DNA of 64,000 nt from Halarcobacter ebronensis. Lineage in GTDB: Bacteria > Campylobacterota > Campylobacteria > Campylobacterales > Arcobacteraceae. This document shows positions 5,259 through 64,000 of the stretch, in pieces (within the stretch, counting starts at the first letter, position 1; every line of letters begins with the position of its first letter). The position numbers were made by a program, and so were the translations under genes. The notes under the pieces were generated by a model that was not told the origin of the DNA, ran no database searches, and saw only the letters and a list, made by a program, of their open reading frames with translations. The stretch lies in assembly GCF_013201825.1 (NCBI RefSeq), contig NZ_CP053836.1:2728001-2792000 (forward strand). Reading direction: 5' to 3'.

Positions 5259-6241
5259 ACTACTTTTATATCTTCTAAATTGATTGTCAAATAGCACTCA
5301 CTGCTATTTTCAAGCTCATCAATTGAAGTAGTTTTTATAAATATAGAACTGTTTTCATAATCACATAATAAAACTTCCACTTCATAATAATCTCCGCAAT
5401 ATGAGATATCTTCAATAGAAGCTTTAACTCCACTTTGCGAGAAACTTATTTTATCAATAGGAACAACCCCAACACTCTCTTCATTAACATCAACACCCAA
5501 CGATAGACTTAATTCATTAGGAAGGCTATTTATTCTATTTAAAAAATTTGCCACATAAAGTGAGTTTGGAGATTCAAAAAGCTCTTTTGGTGTTCCAAAT
5601 TGTTCAATTTTTCTATTATGAATAATTGCAATTTTATCACTCATACTTAAAGCCTCTTTTTGATCGTGGGTAACCAAAATAGCACTAAGTCCCATCTGCT
5701 TGATAAGTTTTTTTAGCCAAACTTTTGTTTTATTTCTAAGTATTGAATCCAAATTTGAAAAGGGTTCATCAAGAAGTATTACTTTTGGTTCATATGCCAA
5801 AACTCTAGCTATTGATACCCTTTGTTGTTGTCCACCACTTAGTTCATGGATTTGTTTATTTCTATGCTCAACTAAGTCAAACTGTTTTAATAACTTATCA
5901 ACTCTTTTTTGTCTCTCTATTGCCTTTAGTTTATAAAGGGCAAACTCAATATTCTCTTTTACATTTAGATGTGGGAAAAGTGCATAATCTTGAAAAATAT
6001 ATCCAATATCTTTGTGACACTGTTTTTGTCCGTTGTTTATTAAGCAGTGATCATTTATAAAAATCTCTCCACTATACTCATCTTGCAAAGAGGCGATACT
6101 TCTTAAAATTGTACTTTTACCACAACCACTTGGTCCTAAAATTGTTACAATCTCCCCTTGAATAACATCGAAAGATACATCTTCTAAAATCTTTGTATCT
6201 GAAAAAGAGATTGAGAAATTTTTTAGGCTAACTCCTACCAT
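5243..6241 (-). CDS. fbpC: iron(III) ABC transporter ATP-binding protein
   Basis: ATPase subunit of a ferric iron importer. Walker A is GPSGCGKST near residue 36, the Q-loop is GYIFQDYALFPHL, the ABC signature is LSGGQQQR and Walker B is VILLDEP, followed by the H-loop VTHDQKEAL. The C-terminal ~100 residues form the TOBE-type regulatory region found in FbpC/PotA ATPases. It follows fbpB by 4 bp and is the last gene of a fbpA-fbpB-fbpC operon preceded by a Fur-like box, which fixes the substrate class as iron better than the ATPase sequence alone would. Confidence 0.88.
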   Translation of the reverse strand: MVGVSLKNFSISFSDTKILEDVSFDVIQGEIVTILGPSGCGKSTILRSIASLQDEYSGEIFINDHCLINNGQKQCHKDIGYIFQDYALFPHLNVKENIEFALYKLKAIERQKRVDKLLKQFDLVEHRNKQIHELSGGQQQRVSIARVLAYEPKVILLDEPFSNLDSILRNKTKVWLKKLIKQMGLSAILVTHDQKEALSMSDKIAIIHNRKIEQFGTPKELFESPNSLYVANFLNRINSLPNELSLSLGVDVNEESVGVVPIDKISFSQSGVKASIEDISYCGDYYEVEVLLCDYENSSIFIKTTSIDELENSSECYLTINLEDIKVVKKSI

Positions 6242-6245
6242 ACTA

Positions 6246-7826
6246 CTAATCCTTAACCATTTTTTTTGCCAAAATCAAAACTGAAATAATTCCAAAGGCA
6301 ACTATAAACATTGCTGGAACACTAGACTCTATTATCTGAGATTGATTTACAAGCTCATGGGATAAAACAGGAAGAGTGTCAAAATTAAAAGGTCTTAATA
6401 TCATTGTTAAAGGCAACTCTTTCATAACTTCAATAAAAACAATAATAAAACTTACCATAATTGAACCTCTAATAAGAGGGAAAACCATCTTAAAAAAGGT
6501 TTGAAAACTTCCTATTTGCATAGTTTTACAAGCATCATCATAGGTTTTTGGAATTTTACTAAATCCTGACTCATAATTATTTATTGAGATTGCAATAAAT
6601 CTAACCACATAACCAAAGATTATGGCAACTATTGTTCCACTTAGTAAAATGTCCAAATTTCTATCTATAATACTAAAAAAACTCAAAATCCCAACAGCCA
6701 CAACTGCTCCTGGAATTGAGTATCCAAGTTTTGAGATTTGTACTAGATTTTCAGCTATTTTATTTTTATGAACTCTTACATTGTATGTAATTACAAATGC
6801 CAATATTGTTATTAATATAGAACTAAATACTCCTAGTGAAAGAGTTTGAAAAAGTATTGTTAAAAAATCTTCATCAATAATCTCTTCATAAGAGATATAA
6901 AACCAATAACTCATTTGAGAAAAAGGGAGTAAAAACCCTAAAAAGAAAGGAATAAAACATACAAGAAAAGCTAAAAAGGCTTTTAAACCTTTTAGTTTTT
7001 GTTTTATAATTGGTTTAAAATCTTTTCCACTACTGTTATACTGTTTATTTCTTCGCTGAAATCTCTCAGCAAAAATAAGTAAAAAAATGAAAAGCATTAA
7101 AAGTGAGGCAAGTTTTGAAGCATCTTCCACACTTCCCATTCCAAGCCAAGTTCTAAAAATACCAGTTACAAATGTTGATACTCCATAATAATCCATAACT
7201 CCAAAATCTGCAACAGCTTCCATTACTGCCAAAATCACTCCTGCAACAATTGCTGGTCTTGAAATAGGAATTATTACCTTATAAAAGATTTGAAAATTTG
7301 TAAGTCCCATTGTTCTTGAAGCATCAATAATAGATGAAGATTCTGCTTTTAGATATGTTTTAGAGATCAGATACACATAAGGGTATAAAACCAAAGACAT
7401 AATTATAATAGCGCCCTCTATTGACATAATATCAAAGAAATTTACTTCATCAAAAGATTTACCCATAAAATCTAAAATAAAAGTTGTAACACTTCCTGTT
7501 ATATCAAACATTCCTCCATAAATATATGACATTATATATGTCGGAATTGCAAAAGGAAGGATTAAAGCATAATGGAAAAACTTTGAACCTTTGAAGCTGT
7601 AAAAAGTTGTAATATAAGCTGTTGTAAATCCCAAAAGAGAGGTTAAAATAGCAACTCCTACCATTATATATAAAGAGTTGTAAATATATGTAAAAAGTAC
7701 AGTATCAACTAGATGTTGCCAATTTTTGCTGCTTACAAATATATTTGAGATTAAAATAAGCGCAGGAATAGAGATAAGTAGCGTTAAAAGAACACTACTT
7801 ATTGTTAATTTATTAAATATCTTCAA
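6246..7826 (-). CDS. fbpB: iron(III) ABC transporter permease (two fused permease halves)
   Basis: A 526-residue membrane protein of about 12 helices made of two permease modules, as in FbpB and SfuB. Each half has a degenerate EAA loop that docks to the ATPase: DASRTMGLTNFQIFYKVIIP in the first and DDACKTMQIGSFQTFFKMVF in the second. The start is TTG at 7824-7826, since no in-frame ATG lies near the first hydrophobic segment and an AAGAAG stretch precedes it. It sits 9 bp after fbpA and 4 bp before fbpC. Confidence 0.88.
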   Translation of the reverse strand: MKIFNKLTISSVLLTLLISIPALILISNIFVSSKNWQHLVDTVLFTYIYNSLYIMVGVAILTSLLGFTTAYITTFYSFKGSKFFHYALILPFAIPTYIMSYIYGGMFDITGSVTTFILDFMGKSFDEVNFFDIMSIEGAIIIMSLVLYPYVYLISKTYLKAESSSIIDASRTMGLTNFQIFYKVIIPISRPAIVAGVILAVMEAVADFGVMDYYGVSTFVTGIFRTWLGMGSVEDASKLASLLMLFIFLLIFAERFQRRNKQYNSSGKDFKPIIKQKLKGLKAFLAFLVCFIPFFLGFLLPFSQMSYWFYISYEEIIDEDFLTILFQTLSLGVFSSILITILAFVITYNVRVHKNKIAENLVQISKLGYSIPGAVVAVGILSFFSIIDRNLDILLSGTIVAIIFGYVVRFIAISINNYESGFSKIPKTYDDACKTMQIGSFQTFFKMVFPLIRGSIMVSFIIVFIEVMKELPLTMILRPFNFDTLPVLSHELVNQSQIIESSVPAMFIVAFGIISVLILAKKMVKD

Positions 7827-58530: not shown

Positions 58531-58542
58531 ACCTCATCTACA
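58515..58542. terminator. stem-loop spanning the convergent glnD and aas ends
   Basis: TGTAGATGA...GGT pairs with ACC...TCATCTACA (12 bp, one bulged A) around a TAA loop that is the glnD stop. Both genes end inside the stem. No U-tract, so termination strength is uncertain; it may protect both 3' ends. Confidence 0.45.
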
Positions 58543-61500
58543 TAAGCTGCATTGCAACTTTTTTTGCCATACCAAAATCTGTTTTACCACTTCCTAGTTT
58601 TGGTACTTCTTCTACTATTTTATACTCTGAAGGCAGCATTAAATTATTATCAAAACTCTCTTTTACTTCATTTTTTAGTATTTCAAGCTCATCACTACTT
58701 ATATGAGAAAGCAGTGCAACAATTTTTTCACCTTTTTTTTCATCATTTATAGCAGTAACAACAACATCAATTTCATCATTAGTAATTAAAGCTTTAATCT
58801 TCTCTTCAACTAATCCTAAACTTACCATCTCTCCACCAAGTTTTGCAAATCTTGAGTATCTATCAACAATAGTTAAAAAACCATCACTGTCTAATCTTCC
58901 TTTATCTCCTGTTATATAATACTTCTCACCATTTTTTTCAATTATTGCCTCTTTTGTCCTTTTTTCATCTTTTAAGTAGCCTTTCATAACTTGAACTCCA
59001 GAGATTAATATCATCCCCTCTTCTCCAACTTTAAGTTCATTAAAAGTGCTTGGATCTACTATTTTAATCTTTGTTCCAGGAATTGGCATACCAACTGTTC
59101 CAAGCTTACTTCCTAGCTGAAACTCTCCCGTTGAAGTTTTAATATCTGGAAGATTGCAACAAGCAACAGGAGTTGTTTCTGTTGTTCCAAAACCCTCTAA
59201 AATATTTTTATTAAACCTTTTTTCAAAATCCTCTCTTACTTTTTGTGAAAGTTTTTCAGCCCCAGCAACAACAAGTCTTAGAGAAGAAAACATCTCTTTT
59301 TTCACCTTTGGATTTTTTGCATAAAGTCTAAAAAAAGTAGAAGTTCCAAGGATAATAGTTGCTTTATATTTTTCCACAAGTTTACCAATTGCATAACCAT
59401 CTGTTGGATCAGGATGAGCTACACATGTGATTCCTTCAATAAGTGGTAAAAACATTGTTACAACAGTTCCAAAAGCGTGAAACAAAGGTAGTGAACCAAC
59501 AATAATATCATCCTCGTTTGCATTAATAACTGAAGCAATTTGTTTTGAGTTTCCTATTATATTGCTGTGGGTTAACTCAACTCCTTTTGGAACTCCTTCA
59601 CTTCCACTACTAAACATTATAACTGCTGTTGAGTCTTTATTCACTTTTTTTAAATGTATTGCTTTTAAAATAAAACTTGGAAGAAGAACTATTGAGATAA
59701 GAGTTATTATCCCTTTAGTTTTTGTTATCTCTTTTTTCATATCTTCAACATAAATAACTTCACACAAAGATAAGACTTCATCAATTTTTATACCCTTTTC
59801 AATAAGTTTTTCAACAAATTTTTTAGAGGTAATCAGGCTTTTTATCTCTGCTTTTTTTACACACTCTGCCAAAGTTTGCATAGAAGAGGTAAAATTAAGA
59901 TTTATAGTAACTTTTCCTAACATTAAAACTGAACAGTTCATAAAAGCCCCACCTACACTTGAAGGAAGCAGTAAACCTATATGTTCTCCTTGAAGTTTTG
60001 TTTTTAGTATATTTTTAAAAAGAGTAATTGCTGTTAAAAATTTATATGCACTAACCTCAAGCCCTGTTGTATCTGCAAAAATTTTATAGGTTTTCATCTC
60101 TTTTAATCTATCAAAAACCACCTCTTGGATAGTTCCAAGTGAGTTTGTATGTTCTCTCCATGATTTAGATGAAAGTTCTTTAACTACTTGCTTAACCTTT
60201 GATGCAGTTGCTTCTCCTTTTTTTATTGGGTTTGAAAAAGAGACTGTAACACTTTTTATTCTTCTTAAACTTTTATATTTTCTATTTGCTCTACTAAACA
60301 TAGATTCCCACAAACCTCTAATATAAAAAGCGATTACAGGAATATCATCTTTTGTCTGTTTTAAAATAAGTTCAAAGCCCCTTTTAAACTCACCTAGATG
60401 TCCAGTTCTTGTAATACTTCCTTCAGGAAAAAGAACTACAATATCTCCATCATCTAAACACTTTGCAATGGTTTTTATTGTCTGTTTACTTGAACTATTT
60501 GAGATGGGAATTACATTAAAAAGTTTTAATATCCAAGTTAAATACCACTTCTCATAAATTGGTTTATGCATCACAAATCTAATTTGTCTTGGAGAGCTCA
60601 TAAATACAACTGCCCAATCTATCCAAGAGACATGATTTCCAAGAAGTAAAGCTCCCCCATTTGAAGGGATATTTTTCAAACCTTGAACATCTAATTTGTA
60701 CTTTAATCCAACAATTATCTTTACAAAAAGTAAAATCATAGATTGGGGAAGACTATAAACAGTATAAGCCATCCCAACAATAGTTATAAAAAGAATCAAA
60801 TAAATTGTACTTAGTGGATTTAGATTATTATATGAAACTACAGTTGTAAGGCAAAGCATAATAAACATAGCCAAAGAGTGAAACCAATTATTACCAGCTA
60901 AGATAGTTCCTAAAGTTTTCTTTTTTGCATTAAATTGTATTAGAGCATTTAAAGGAACCACAAACATCCCTCCAAAAACTCCAAAAAATAAAAATGTCAA
61001 AGAGAGCATTAAAGAACTCTCTACAATTGTTGAACAATATATCATTAATGCCATTCCCAAAGCAGCAAGGGGTATTGTTCCTATTTCTATATAGTGTCTT
61101 GAAAGTTTAGAGTATATTATTGAACCTAAAGCTATACCAATGCCAGAAGCTGCAAGAACTCCATTTATAACAAATACATCTGTTATATTCAAATACTCTT
61201 TTGCATATGAGGGAAATACAGCCATTAAACCTTGAGAAATTCCCCAGAAGACTGATAAACCAACCACAGATAAAGAGACAAGATTATTTGAGAAAAGCAT
61301 TTTAATATTTTTCTTTAAAAGCTCTCCTCTTAGAAGTTTGTTTTTATCTAAAACTAAACTTTCATCAAAACTATAGTTTGTATTAAGCCTTCTTAAAACT
61401 AATAAAGAGAGTAGCATCTCTAAAAAGGCAACAGGAACAATATAGTATGTAAGAGGCAATATTGCAAGAAGAAGTTCCTCTTTTGTCTGCAATGTTTGTA

Positions 61501-62017
61501 AAGCATTTGAATTATAAAAAGATTCAAAAACATATGAGCCACTTGCAATTGAAAACAAAATAGCAATTATTGAAACTGCCTGCAAAGAGGAGTTCCCTTT
61601 TGCAAGATTACCTTTCCCCCAAATATCCATAATAATTCCAAATTTAGCAGGAGAATAGATTGCACTTTGTACAGCTAAAAGTGTTAGGTTTAACATTGCT
61701 AAATAAAAATTTCCACTAAGATAAGATAAAACCATCAAAACTGATAAGGTAAAAGAAGAGATAGCTCCATATATCAAAATATCTTTTTTATTATATCTAT
61801 CAGACAAAAATCCACTTATAGAAAAAAGAAGTAAAAAAGGGATAATTATCATGGCATTTATAATTGATATCCAAACAACTTGTTCACTACCATCAAATAT
61901 TTTAAATGCAATATTTTGAAGTAAAACTTTGTGGGCAACATCAACAACTACATTACAAAAAACAACAATTAAAAAAGCAAATTTTATAATATAAATATTC
62001 TGATTTGTTTTTAACAT
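58538..62017 (-). CDS. LplT-PlsC-Aas fusion (lysophospholipid flippase / acyltransferase / acyl-ACP synthetase)
   Basis: An 1159-residue three-module protein. Residues about 1-430 are an MFS-type flippase like LplT. Residues about 440-620 are a PlsC acyltransferase with NHVSWIDW (His462, Asp467: HX4D) and LFPEGSITR (529-537). Residues about 640-1159 are an AMP-forming acyl-ACP synthetase with the P-loop IMFSSGSEGVPKGVELTH. In E. coli, LplT and Aas are separate proteins that flip and re-acylate 2-acyl-lysophosphatidylethanolamine; the single chain performs the whole cycle. I recall such fusions as typical of this phylum. It overlaps the MerR stop by one base and is convergent with glnD. Confidence 0.88.
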   Translation of the reverse strand: MLKTNQNIYIIKFAFLIVVFCNVVVDVAHKVLLQNIAFKIFDGSEQVVWISIINAMIIIPFLLLFSISGFLSDRYNKKDILIYGAISSFTLSVLMVLSYLSGNFYLAMLNLTLLAVQSAIYSPAKFGIIMDIWGKGNLAKGNSSLQAVSIIAILFSIASGSYVFESFYNSNALQTLQTKEELLLAILPLTYYIVPVAFLEMLLSLLVLRRLNTNYSFDESLVLDKNKLLRGELLKKNIKMLFSNNLVSLSVVGLSVFWGISQGLMAVFPSYAKEYLNITDVFVINGVLAASGIGIALGSIIYSKLSRHYIEIGTIPLAALGMALMIYCSTIVESSLMLSLTFLFFGVFGGMFVVPLNALIQFNAKKKTLGTILAGNNWFHSLAMFIMLCLTTVVSYNNLNPLSTIYLILFITIVGMAYTVYSLPQSMILLFVKIIVGLKYKLDVQGLKNIPSNGGALLLGNHVSWIDWAVVFMSSPRQIRFVMHKPIYEKWYLTWILKLFNVIPISNSSSKQTIKTIAKCLDDGDIVVLFPEGSITRTGHLGEFKRGFELILKQTKDDIPVIAFYIRGLWESMFSRANRKYKSLRRIKSVTVSFSNPIKKGEATASKVKQVVKELSSKSWREHTNSLGTIQEVVFDRLKEMKTYKIFADTTGLEVSAYKFLTAITLFKNILKTKLQGEHIGLLLPSSVGGAFMNCSVLMLGKVTINLNFTSSMQTLAECVKKAEIKSLITSKKFVEKLIEKGIKIDEVLSLCEVIYVEDMKKEITKTKGIITLISIVLLPSFILKAIHLKKVNKDSTAVIMFSSGSEGVPKGVELTHSNIIGNSKQIASVINANEDDIIVGSLPLFHAFGTVVTMFLPLIEGITCVAHPDPTDGYAIGKLVEKYKATIILGTSTFFRLYAKNPKVKKEMFSSLRLVVAGAEKLSQKVREDFEKRFNKNILEGFGTTETTPVACCNLPDIKTSTGEFQLGSKLGTVGMPIPGTKIKIVDPSTFNELKVGEEGMILISGVQVMKGYLKDEKRTKEAIIEKNGEKYYITGDKGRLDSDGFLTIVDRYSRFAKLGGEMVSLGLVEEKIKALITNDEIDVVVTAINDEKKGEKIVALLSHISSDELEILKNEVKESFDNNLMLPSEYKIVEEVPKLGSGKTDFGMAKKVAMQLM

Positions 62018-62664
62018 TAAATCCCCTTTTTCTCTTTTTTGAACTCAATAATTGTGTGTCTATTGAAAATATATGGCTTAAAAGAGTTTAGAATATCTAA
62101 AACTAAAATCTCAGGTAAAAATCCCGTCTCTTCCAAAACTTTTGTGCTTAGTTCTCTTTCTAAAAGAGCAAGTTTTTTGCTTGTTCTTACATATTCACTT
62201 ATAAGTTTTGTGGAGATATCATATTTTCTAAGCTCACTATAGGTTTTTAATACCTCTGTTTCTGTTTTGAAATATATCTTTTTGTCATCTAACAAATCTA
62301 AACTAATAGCCTCTTTTAAAAGCTCCTGGTCTAAATCTTTTTTTAAAATTGGATTTTTTATCTCATTTGAGAGCATTTGGATTGATTGCAAAATAAGCTC
62401 TGCTCTATCGTCAAAGTTAATTCTATAGTAATCAAAAAGCTCTTTTATATAATCTATTGAAAAATTTAGATTCTCTTTGAAATATTTTATTAGATTTAAA
62501 ACTGTAATTGTGATATGAGGATAGTACTTCATATTTTTTGAAGTATTAACTGTATTTGGAAGCAAACCTTTTTTATCATAAAAAGAGATTGTATAATTGC
62601 TAAGGTCAACCAGTTGTACAAGCTCACTCATCTTATAGTAATCTTTTCCATCAATAATTTTCAT
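62017..62664 (-). CDS. MerR-family transcriptional regulator
   Basis: A 215-residue regulator. The N-terminal winged HTH (YKMSELVQLVDLSNYTISFY; DKKGLLPNTVN; MKYYPHITITVLNLIKYF) is MerR-like, followed by a coiled-coil dimerisation helix (about 80-115) and a C-terminal effector domain of about 95 residues with no Cys, so not a metal-type MerR. It overlaps the acyltransferase fusion by one base, which strongly suggests a lipid-turnover regulator controlling its own operon. Two palindromic operators lie upstream (see entries). Clear AGGAG ribosome site 6 nt before the ATG. Confidence 0.85.
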   Translation of the reverse strand: MKIIDGKDYYKMSELVQLVDLSNYTISFYDKKGLLPNTVNTSKNMKYYPHITITVLNLIKYFKENLNFSIDYIKELFDYYRINFDDRAELILQSIQMLSNEIKNPILKKDLDQELLKEAISLDLLDDKKIYFKTETEVLKTYSELRKYDISTKLISEYVRTSKKLALLERELSTKVLEETGFLPEILVLDILNSFKPYIFNRHTIIEFKKEKKGI

Positions 62665-62674
62665 CTTAACTCCT

Positions 62675-62701
62675 AAAGTAGAGAGTTAAACTCTTTACTT
62701 T
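62675..62701. promoter_or_regulatory. operator 1 of the merR-aas promoter
   Basis: AAAGTAGAGAGTT and AACTCTTTACTTT, 13-bp arms with one mismatch around one base. It lies over the probable +1 and early transcribed region of merR. The right arm AACTCTTTACTTT recurs in operator 2, so the same protein, probably the MerR product, should bind both. Confidence 0.65.
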
Positions 62702-62705
62702 TGAG

Positions 62706-62734
62706 ATTATAGATAATAATTATATAAAAGTCAA
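62706..62734 (-). promoter_or_regulatory. merR-aas promoter: TTGACT -35, 17-bp spacer, TATAAT -10
   Basis: On the minus strand the -35 hexamer TTGACT (62729-62734) and the -10 hexamer TATAAT (62706-62711) are 17 bp apart, close to the optimal sigma-70 spacing. The -35 hexamer lies inside operator 2. A MerR-activated promoter usually has a 19-20 bp spacer with the operator inside it, so this layout is repressor-like. Confidence 0.65.
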
Positions 62735-62754
62735 GAGTGCAACTCTTTACTTTT
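62726..62754. promoter_or_regulatory. operator 2 of the merR-aas promoter
   Basis: AAAAGTCAAGAGT and ACTCTTTACTTTT, 13-bp arms with one mismatch around GCA. It overlaps the -35 box. Its centre is about 52 bp from the centre of operator 1, near five helical turns, so dimers on the same face could interact and loop the promoter. Confidence 0.65.
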
Positions 62755-62764
62755 ATTTTTTTAT

Positions 62765-64000
62765 TTATGAAAATATATTTTTAAGTACTTTTATTTTTGA
62801 AAAAACTAAAATATCTAAAGCCAATACAACTATTAAAGTAATTCCAACAAGTGGAAAAAATAAAGAGACTAAAAGCATTATAAACATAGCATTTTTCCAA
62901 TGGGGTAAATTTTTTGGCATAGGAGGAGCACTTAGTTTAAATCCAGCATTTGCTGGTCTTCTTTTCCACCACATTACAAGTCCAGTAATACTTAAGGCTA
63001 TTACAGATAAACAAATCAAAGTATTTATTATAAGATTCCAAATTGTTACAAGCCCCATATGAATAGGAATAGATACAGCCATAACTTTACCGGCAAGGGA
63101 ATAATCATCAAATGTTACTTTTGCCAAAATTTTTCCTGTATATCTATCTATATGAACTGTTTTATCAACAAATGGATTTTTGGAATCACTATTCATAGTA
63201 TCTTGGTTTATAGTCCATACACCAGTTTCTCCTTTAGGAAAGGATACTCTATATCTTTCTTTAAAACCAATCTCATTTGCTAGGTTTACTATTGAATCTA
63301 TATTAATTTTTTCATTATCTAAAGTACCTTTTAGTCCCATTTTTGAGCCTGACATTGGTAAATTAGTATGTTCTATTGCCCAAGGCATACCTTCACTAGG
63401 ACCATAATTTAAAGAAGCATGAGTCTTATCTGATAATGGAATCTTATCCCATTTTTGAGCAGGAAAAGTACTCCAAGCTTGAACTATTTTTGCTCCCCAT
63501 ACACCTGTCCATGACATCCCAGAAAGTAAAAAAAGAAAAAAGAAAATTGAAACATATACACCTAATGTAACGTGAAAATTCTTAAAAAATTCTCTACCTT
63601 TCAAAGAAAAATCAAAAGCTAAAACCTTTGAAATTTTCCTATCTCTTGGCCACCATAGATATAAACCAGTAATAATTAAAATAATACCAAACCCTGCACT
63701 TATCTCTAAAATTCTATCCCCAGTTTTTCCTATCAATAAATCACTATGGATATTATCAGCTAAATCATACCAACCTTGTCTTCTTTCCCAATCTTTTATA
63801 ATTTTGCCAGAATATGGGTTTACCGCAATCATTTTTTGAGTACCATTTTCTAACTTTAATCTAAAAACATTAACTCTATTTTCACTTGGAGCTTTTATTA
63901 ACTCCACAACATTTGAACCAACAATTGAAGATCTTGCAATCTGTGATTGTTTTTCTAAACTTATCATTGTATTATTTTCAGGAACACGAATAATAATATT
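62765..64000 (-). CDS. PepSY-associated membrane protein (partial, N-terminus beyond right edge)
   Basis: At least 411 residues, frame open to the window's end at 64000, so the N-terminal helix is missing from view. Visible are a PepSY-like segment (RLKLENGTQKMIAVNPYSGK), helices near residues 90-110 (ISAGFGIILIITGLYLWW, counting from 63967), 130-155 and 310-330, and a C-terminal pair. Conserved His and WW residues (DNIHSDLLIGKTGDRILE; FKNFHVTLGVYVSIFFFL; VSIPIHMGLVTIWNLI) are typical of the PepSY_TM family, often beside iron-siderophore uptake or reductases. The following MerR operators lie just after its stop. The internal ATG at 63967 is not taken as the start. Confidence 0.82.
   Translation of the reverse strand, partial: NIIIRVPENNTMISLEKQSQIARSSIVGSNVVELIKAPSENRVNVFRLKLENGTQKMIAVNPYSGKIIKDWERRQGWYDLADNIHSDLLIGKTGDRILEISAGFGIILIITGLYLWWPRDRKISKVLAFDFSLKGREFFKNFHVTLGVYVSIFFFLFLLSGMSWTGVWGAKIVQAWSTFPAQKWDKIPLSDKTHASLNYGPSEGMPWAIEHTNLPMSGSKMGLKGTLDNEKINIDSIVNLANEIGFKERYRVSFPKGETGVWTINQDTMNSDSKNPFVDKTVHIDRYTGKILAKVTFDDYSLAGKVMAVSIPIHMGLVTIWNLIINTLICLSVIALSITGLVMWWKRRPANAGFKLSAPPMPKNLPHWKNAMFIMLLVSLFFPLVGITLIVVLALDILVFSKIKVLKNIFS

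Follow-up and report, generated by a model that had tools for sequence, protein, structure and literature searches.

The DNA analysed here, referred to throughout as the window, is a stretch of 64,000 nucleotides from Halarcobacter ebronensis (contig NZ_CP053836.1, positions 2,728,001 to 2,792,000). Its minus strand carries a gene for a MerR-family regulator, followed by an lplT-aas gene fusion and preceded by a promoter-like sequence with two palindromes. The features of the locus are the following.

58538..62017, minus strand: lplT-aas fusion, next gene of the presumed operon (NCBIfam NF006386 and Pfam domains)
62017..62664, minus strand: merR, encoding a 215-aa MerR-family regulator, the presumed autorepressor (Pfam MerR_1, AlphaFold2 model)
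62675..62701, minus strand: op1, the proximal palindrome of 27 bp, shortly after the -10 in the predicted start-site region
62706..62711, minus strand: -10 hexamer TATAAT, 17 bp from the -35 and 4 bp before op1 (consensus scan)
62727..62753, minus strand: op2, the distal 27-bp palindrome, overlapping the -35
62729..62734, minus strand: putative -35 hexamer TTGACT, within op2 (consensus scan)

Read along the minus strand, op2 (including TTGACT) is followed by a 17-bp spacer, TATAAT, 4 bp, op1, an AGGAG and the ATG of the 215-codon gene, and the site sequence at the locus is AAAGTAAAGAGTTNNACTCTTTACTTT. The encoded regulator contains the N-terminal winged helix-turn-helix that defines the MerR superfamily and matches Pfam MerR_1 (PF13411) with an E-value of 2.7e-16 and 59.9 bits, against a cut-off of 21.6. 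Its gene overlaps the following one in the sequence TAATG. The product of this second gene combines MFS transporter, acyltransferase and AMP-binding (acyl-ACP synthetase) domains according to Pfam, and it belongs to the LplT-Aas fusion family, scoring 1480.6 bits with NF006386 against an equivalog cut-off of 1221. A PepSY-TM gene (62765-63967) lies directly upstream, with its stop codon 11 bp before op2. Searching the open-access literature by title and beginning of abstract, we found no paper on this merR-lplT-aas operon.

Both palindromes are real and lie where the original prediction, made from the DNA sequence, had placed them. Their description as inverted repeats with 13-bp arms and one mismatch each holds for op1 (12/13 arm positions complementary) but not for op2, in which 11/13 positions are complementary and a single mismatch is obtained only with 12-bp arms. 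The two sites agree at 24 of 28 positions (86%) in the repeat listing, and their start-to-start spacing of 52 bp is the distance originally given. The consensus scan also recovered the TTGACT and TATAAT proposed as promoter hexamers, and op2, said to lie on the -35, indeed contains TTGACT (62734-62729). The resulting merR-lplT/aas promoter on the minus strand matches 11 of 12 consensus bases with a spacer of 17. Since promoter-like sites are not unusually frequent in the 351-bp region (three, versus a mean of 1.7 with a standard deviation of 1.3 in shuffled sequence), the promoter call rests on the quality of the match and on conservation. Allowing up to three mismatches, the 27-bp pattern occurs in the window only at op1 and op2 (four matches with both strands counted), and 100 dinucleotide-preserving shuffles of the window gave 0.00 matches. 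At the same tolerance, under which weaker sites could escape, the 3.17-Mb genome contains no further operator besides these two, and the control with the pattern read backwards produced no match in it.

Conservation of the sites in the family

Conservation was assessed in a family sample of 104 genomes, with the MerR counted as present at E ≤ 1e-40. By this measure it is carried by 25 genomes, duplicates being counted once (the upstream sequences of L081 and L082 are those of L162 and L161, and L077-L080 correspond to G011, G007, G006 and G003). The prediction had been exposed to the possibility that other genomes would lack both operators; instead, all 25 merR-bearing genomes keep op1, which matches the consensus at 21-25 of 25 positions, and 18 also keep op2. 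The proximal site begins exactly 4 bp after a -10-like hexamer in 24/25 genomes, with a weaker -10 (TAAACT or TAGACT) in L157-L159, and it lies 10 to 24 bp from the ATG, depending on the genome. Where both sites are present, op2 lies 52 bp upstream of op1 in 17 of the 18 genomes and 68 bp upstream in G017; the op2 of L007 (G008) is degenerate, with 20/25 consensus matches. The seven op1-only genomes (G102, G115, G117, G118, G119, G120 and G126) all belong to genus g11. Six of them have TTGACA as their -35, as expected if the constraint imposed on it by op2 is gone, and G102 retains TTGACT. On the MerR tree the op1-only state needs two changes, of which the starred branches force only one; the tree is compatible with two losses of op2, and independent loss is likely.

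A pattern scan of 60 genomes returned matches in 20, of which 12 contain the pair, always at merR, and eight a single isolated match elsewhere; a few of the pair-bearing genomes also have additional single matches, and the backwards pattern matched nowhere in the 60 genomes. Away from merR, another palindrome, AAAGATAAGAGTTTAACTCTTATCTTT, is found in identical form in two relatives of the window genome (G002:C1:568342-568368 and G010:C1:1424138-1424164). At 11 aas loci of genomes with no detected merR, among them L072, where about 0.13 kb upstream of aas was covered, the best match to the operator reached 14-18 of 25 positions. Three genomes of the same genus, G004, G010 and G012, encode an LplT-Aas above the family cut-off, with no detected merR homologue and no operator pair.

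An altogether different function of the palindromes was also considered, in which they would act as RNA, op1 forming a 5′ hairpin near the ribosome site and op2 the terminator of the upstream gene. Folded alone, op1 and op2 reach -7.9 and -7.5 kcal/mol (z -2.9 and -2.3 versus shuffles), as any palindrome would, and the placement of op2 in the window, 11 bp behind a stop codon, would suit a terminator. However, among 14 distinct op1 sequences (L157-L167 left out) only one double-sided pair change is seen, a value reached by 338 of 500 shuffles, and op1 cells are paired in 93.5% of cases versus 93.7% in shuffles, leaving no compensatory excess. The folding of the 81-nt leader is unexceptional (z -0.71), the scanned region contains no terminator-like site, and op2 would lie outside the transcript of this promoter. 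Upstream neighbours also differ among loci: in 16 loci examined, an upstream open frame ending the same as or similarly to the PepSY-TM gene of the window is found only in L008 and L012, and in 4/16 op2 starts inside the upstream open frame. With covariation, leader folding and terminator scans all failing to support it, the RNA reading was rejected, and we consider it extremely improbable.

Distant relatives with a single site

The analysis was extended by scanning named genomes, which yielded at least 250 confirmed relatives; the best 80 were taken, most of them loci labelled Campylobacterota or Pasteurellaceae. Six of these loci are of the window type and 74 are not; after L126 was dropped because of its little upstream sequence, 73 distant loci remained. 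These 73 loci encode a 25-34% identical MerR. Every one of the 73, within this selection of 80 from at least 250 relatives, has a single related site of 27 bp (consensus AAAGTGTAAAGTNNNACTTGACACTTT), located on the -35 or close to it, and no separate second site, the best non-overlapping candidate scoring 10.1 bits versus 16.0 for the lowest first site. Significance was missing in many distant loci when palindromes were scanned by complementarity alone, so weight matrices with split controls were used. Trained on half of the loci, these matrices scored 110 of 111 test upstream regions above the best of 3700 shuffles and 111/111 above the 99% level, over three random halves with overlapping test sets of 37 and with a seed read off some of the same loci. 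With the -35 set at a fixed place in the site and a range of 14-21 allowed, the spacer measures 17-18 bp in 61 of the 73 loci drawn from the best 80 relatives. The other 12 have spacers of 15 (L148, L150-L155), 19 (L124, L134, L156), 20 (L147) or 21 bp (L089), so that promoter assignment in the distant loci is not uniform. The -35 position is therefore the common one outside the family of the window, and a site at the start position is present in every family member with this MerR, some of which have no other. L148 and L150-L155 constitute a MerR subgroup in which no aas follows merR; a related palindrome, such as AACGTAAAGTTTAACTTTACGTT in L152, precedes the matched start by about 80 bp, and its distance to the -10 is different.

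Gene linkage extends to this wider set. Of the 80 best loci, chosen from at least 250 relatives, 68 show an aas-like gene behind merR in the same orientation, at a distance of up to approximately 1.05 kb in 67 loci and of 3.8 kb in L138; the 12 loci with no aas-like gene comprise three with less than 200 nt of sequence and nine that lack the gene in the downstream sequence covered. In L157 and L159 the gene after merR differs from aas. In L077 (the same record as G011), merR and aas are separated by an Amidohydro_2 family gene (PF04909, positions 5639-6640), and coordinates indicate a similar gap of about 1 kb in G001, G005, G007 and G015 of the same genus.

The window-type and distant loci can be used to ask which protein reads the sites. 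In all 16 window-type rows the reading helix of the MerR is N[HY]TI[SA]FY; in the 74 others it is KST[IV]L[YF]Y with one exception (73/74). The operator is closer to the window type in each of the 16 and closer to the other type in 69 of the 74. Helix type and operator type thus agree in 85 of 90 loci, the exceptions being four Pasteurellaceae with a KST helix and a window-like operator (L133, L134, L135 and L138) and the short-upstream L126. This co-change, together with the constant linkage, points to the MerR itself as the binder, although much of the co-change could be explained by shared ancestry alone. Occupation of the sites by a different regulator is very improbable: op1 accompanies merR in every merR-bearing family genome, stays with it whatever the upstream gene (16 loci), is missing from the 11 aas loci of genomes with no detected merR, and matches the MerR reading helix in type nearly throughout.

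The series of one-site and two-site loci is also informative about DNA looping, which the original prediction had entertained next to direct repression. In a strict form of this idea, two MerR dimers on the same face of the helix, five turns apart, would trap the promoter in an obligatory loop or higher-order complex. The 52-bp spacing, at 4.95 turns of 10.5 bp in 17 of 18 two-site genomes, fits such an arrangement, but the same 52 bp also result from a 17-bp spacer plus the fixed 4-bp gap after the -10. The 68 bp of G017 amount to 6.48 turns and break the helical phasing, seven of the 25 relatives have op1 alone, and the 73 distant loci, which come from the 80 best of at least 250 relatives, all show the -35 site and no other. 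A looping model was also proposed for GlnR at nif and was unsupported by later data (PMC6191146). Helical phasing as a rule was rejected on account of G017 and the one-site relatives. Looping seems unnecessary, given that some relatives have just one or the other site and one relative has a spacing of 68 bp, and an obligatory loop is accordingly unlikely; in genomes with both sites looping may occur in addition, 52 bp being close to five helical turns.

Relation to known MerR-type regulators

VIA matches of the window MerR include SoxR (2zhg, Z 10.0, 85 residues aligned, 1.7 Å), GlnR (7tea, Z 9.3, 75 residues, 2.1 Å) and MtaN (1r8d, Z 9.3, 72 residues, 1.6 Å). Against the NCBIfam equivalogs for the metal sensors MerR, CadR, ZntR and CueR, its best score is 33.7 bits versus a cut-off of 150.85. 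MerR-type activation by DNA distortion typically involves promoter spacers of 19-20 bp (PMC9909328), and in the layout of MerR, CueR, SoxR and BmrR the operator lies within that spacer; the window has a spacer of 17 and its sites are elsewhere. They fall on the -35 and the start region instead of between the -35 and -10, and this repressor-type layout is conserved with merR. The 17-bp spacer and near-consensus hexamers further favour the direct repression that had been preferred to classical MerR activation.

GlnR of Bacillus and Paenibacillus resembles the window system in acting at optimally spaced promoters with two sites (PMC6191146). Full repression at B. subtilis glnRA requires both sites, one of which overlaps the -35, and at nif the sites flank the -35/-10, as in the window (PMC6191146). 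The regulator gene is, moreover, the first in its own operon (glnRA). GlnR differs in its 17-bp TGTNAN7TNACA site, in a C-terminal domain that senses glutamine synthetase and in targets other than lipid genes; the GlnR/TnrA site is absent from the window, where the site is AAAGTAAAGAGTTNNACTCTTTACTTT, and the consensus halves of the distant loci (best 80 of at least 250 relatives), TGTAA-N9-TGACA, are spaced by 9 instead of 7. The P. polymyxa nif promoter, at which GlnR activates through site I and represses through site II (PMC6191146), provides a precedent for a further alternative, in which the MerR would activate from op2 as a class-II site near -41, or by DNA distortion, and op1 would serve as a brake. 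Classical MerR proteins do both activate and repress (PMC9909328). Against activation stand the near-consensus promoter (11/12), its 17-bp spacer versus the 19-20 bp typical of MerR-activated promoters (PMC9909328), the position of op2 on the -35 itself and the full TTGACA in six of the seven op1-only relatives, and we regard it as quite unlikely.

Other repressors share individual elements of the arrangement. CarA and CarH of Myxococcus have a MerR-type N-terminal domain and repress directly over the -35, where two dimers bind cooperatively to a large operator (PMC8156234); they differ in their B12-type C-terminal domain and in a contiguous operator of about 55 bp (-70 to -19) that leaves the start region free of sites. 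The window MerR contains no cobalamin-binding domain, MerR_1 and MerR being its only Pfam matches at E ≤ 0.001. CvkR is a MerR-type repressor acting at PtnsB through a site over the start of a promoter with a 17-nt spacer, and the sites of HnoC and McdR overlap the start and the -10 (PMC9938897). All three have other motifs and genes, and the relevant passages of that source describe no twin sites around one promoter. In the Campylobacterota, HspR of Helicobacter pylori is a MerR-family repressor of its own promoter that covers 70 bp, with three dimers proposed (PMC6102357), and differs in having one central HAIR motif with non-conserved flanks and heat-shock genes as targets; at E ≤ 0.001, the HspR models of NCBIfam recognise 2-3 of 34 homologues and not the window MerR. 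Rv1828/FtsR has a MerR domain, as does the window protein, and its C-terminal domain gave the closest fold match to that of the window protein; its site is an imperfect 25-bp inverted repeat (PMC6683498), but it activates ftsZ, unlike the proposed repressor. The NCBIfam FtsR model matches 25/34 homologues at E ≤ 0.001 (best E 2.9e-13), with 22.4-26 bits for three homologues versus a cut-off of 150, and does not match the window MerR at E 0.001. MerR-type repressors with 17-bp-spacer promoters or several operators are thus already known in the sources cited (GlnR, CarA, HspR, CvkR); by analogy, the window system would add to this kind a lipid-operon case with a well-conserved layout.

The AlphaFold2 model of the MerR is confident (pLDDT 88.5 overall, 90.6 for residues 101-215). 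Its C-terminal domain is nearest to the Rv1828 C-domain (Z 7.2, 105 residues aligned, 3.7 Å, 10% identity), followed by the regulatory domain Rv1264N (Z 6.2, 111 residues, 4.2 Å). The profile match to the FtsR/Rv1828 C-terminal fold has an E-value of 0.1, Foldseek with the C-terminal domain found no match at E 0.001 (all E > 0.3), and these fold matches, with Z below 8, may reflect merely a common arrangement. Families that did not rank among the top fold matches, CarA and HspR among them, may still be similar. Fatty acids are given as the ligand of Rv1828 in a review table (PMC9909328), and the Rv1264 structure reportedly contained oleic acid (PMC12505454). A lipid inducer is a plausible lead, both because fatty acids are reported for the best fold matches and because the operon deals with lysophospholipids and acyl chains. 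We put somewhat less than even chances on a lipid-derived inducer (a fatty acid, lysophospholipid or acyl chain) acting on the C-terminal domain.

Autorepression as the proposed mechanism

We propose that op1 and op2 are the operators of the MerR encoded directly downstream. MerR dimers on op2 would cover the -35 and dimers on op1 the start-site region, keeping RNA polymerase off a strong promoter that seems self-sufficient, given its 17-bp spacer and 11/12 consensus bases. From the computed positions, conservation and gene linkage of the sites we infer that the MerR binds there and represses both its own gene and the presumably co-transcribed lplT-aas, and thereby lysophospholipid uptake and re-acylation. 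Two sites would give tighter or more cooperative repression than one, and each position would be able to work alone. Since each position is found by itself in some relatives, two steric blocks that act independently, perhaps with cooperativity, are favoured over a loop that both sites must form. A lipid ligand in the C-terminal domain would release the repressor when the membrane needs repair or exogenous acyl chains are present. The centre of op2 would lie near -41 relative to the likely start, a position from which some factors activate, and this would count against repression. On balance, we hold with good confidence that the MerR serves specifically to repress its own operon, by keeping RNA polymerase from the -35 and from the start site; a lipid inducer is our first guess. 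The original interpretation is, as a whole, partly supported. As a tentative and rather doubtful extension, Campylobacterota and some Pasteurellaceae may share a branch of the MerR superfamily that senses fatty acids or lysolipids and serves only the lplT-aas operon for phospholipid repair. In this branch the operator would have shifted its place, first on the -35 and later on the start site, by way of a two-operator stage that the window represents, with helix and site changing together.

If correct, this mechanism would offer a ready means of controlling how Campylobacterota repair phospholipids and salvage acyl chains, and put forward a candidate lipid-sensing MerR family. The natural series of loci with the -35 site only, both sites, or the start site only would then allow the contribution of each operator position to be measured.
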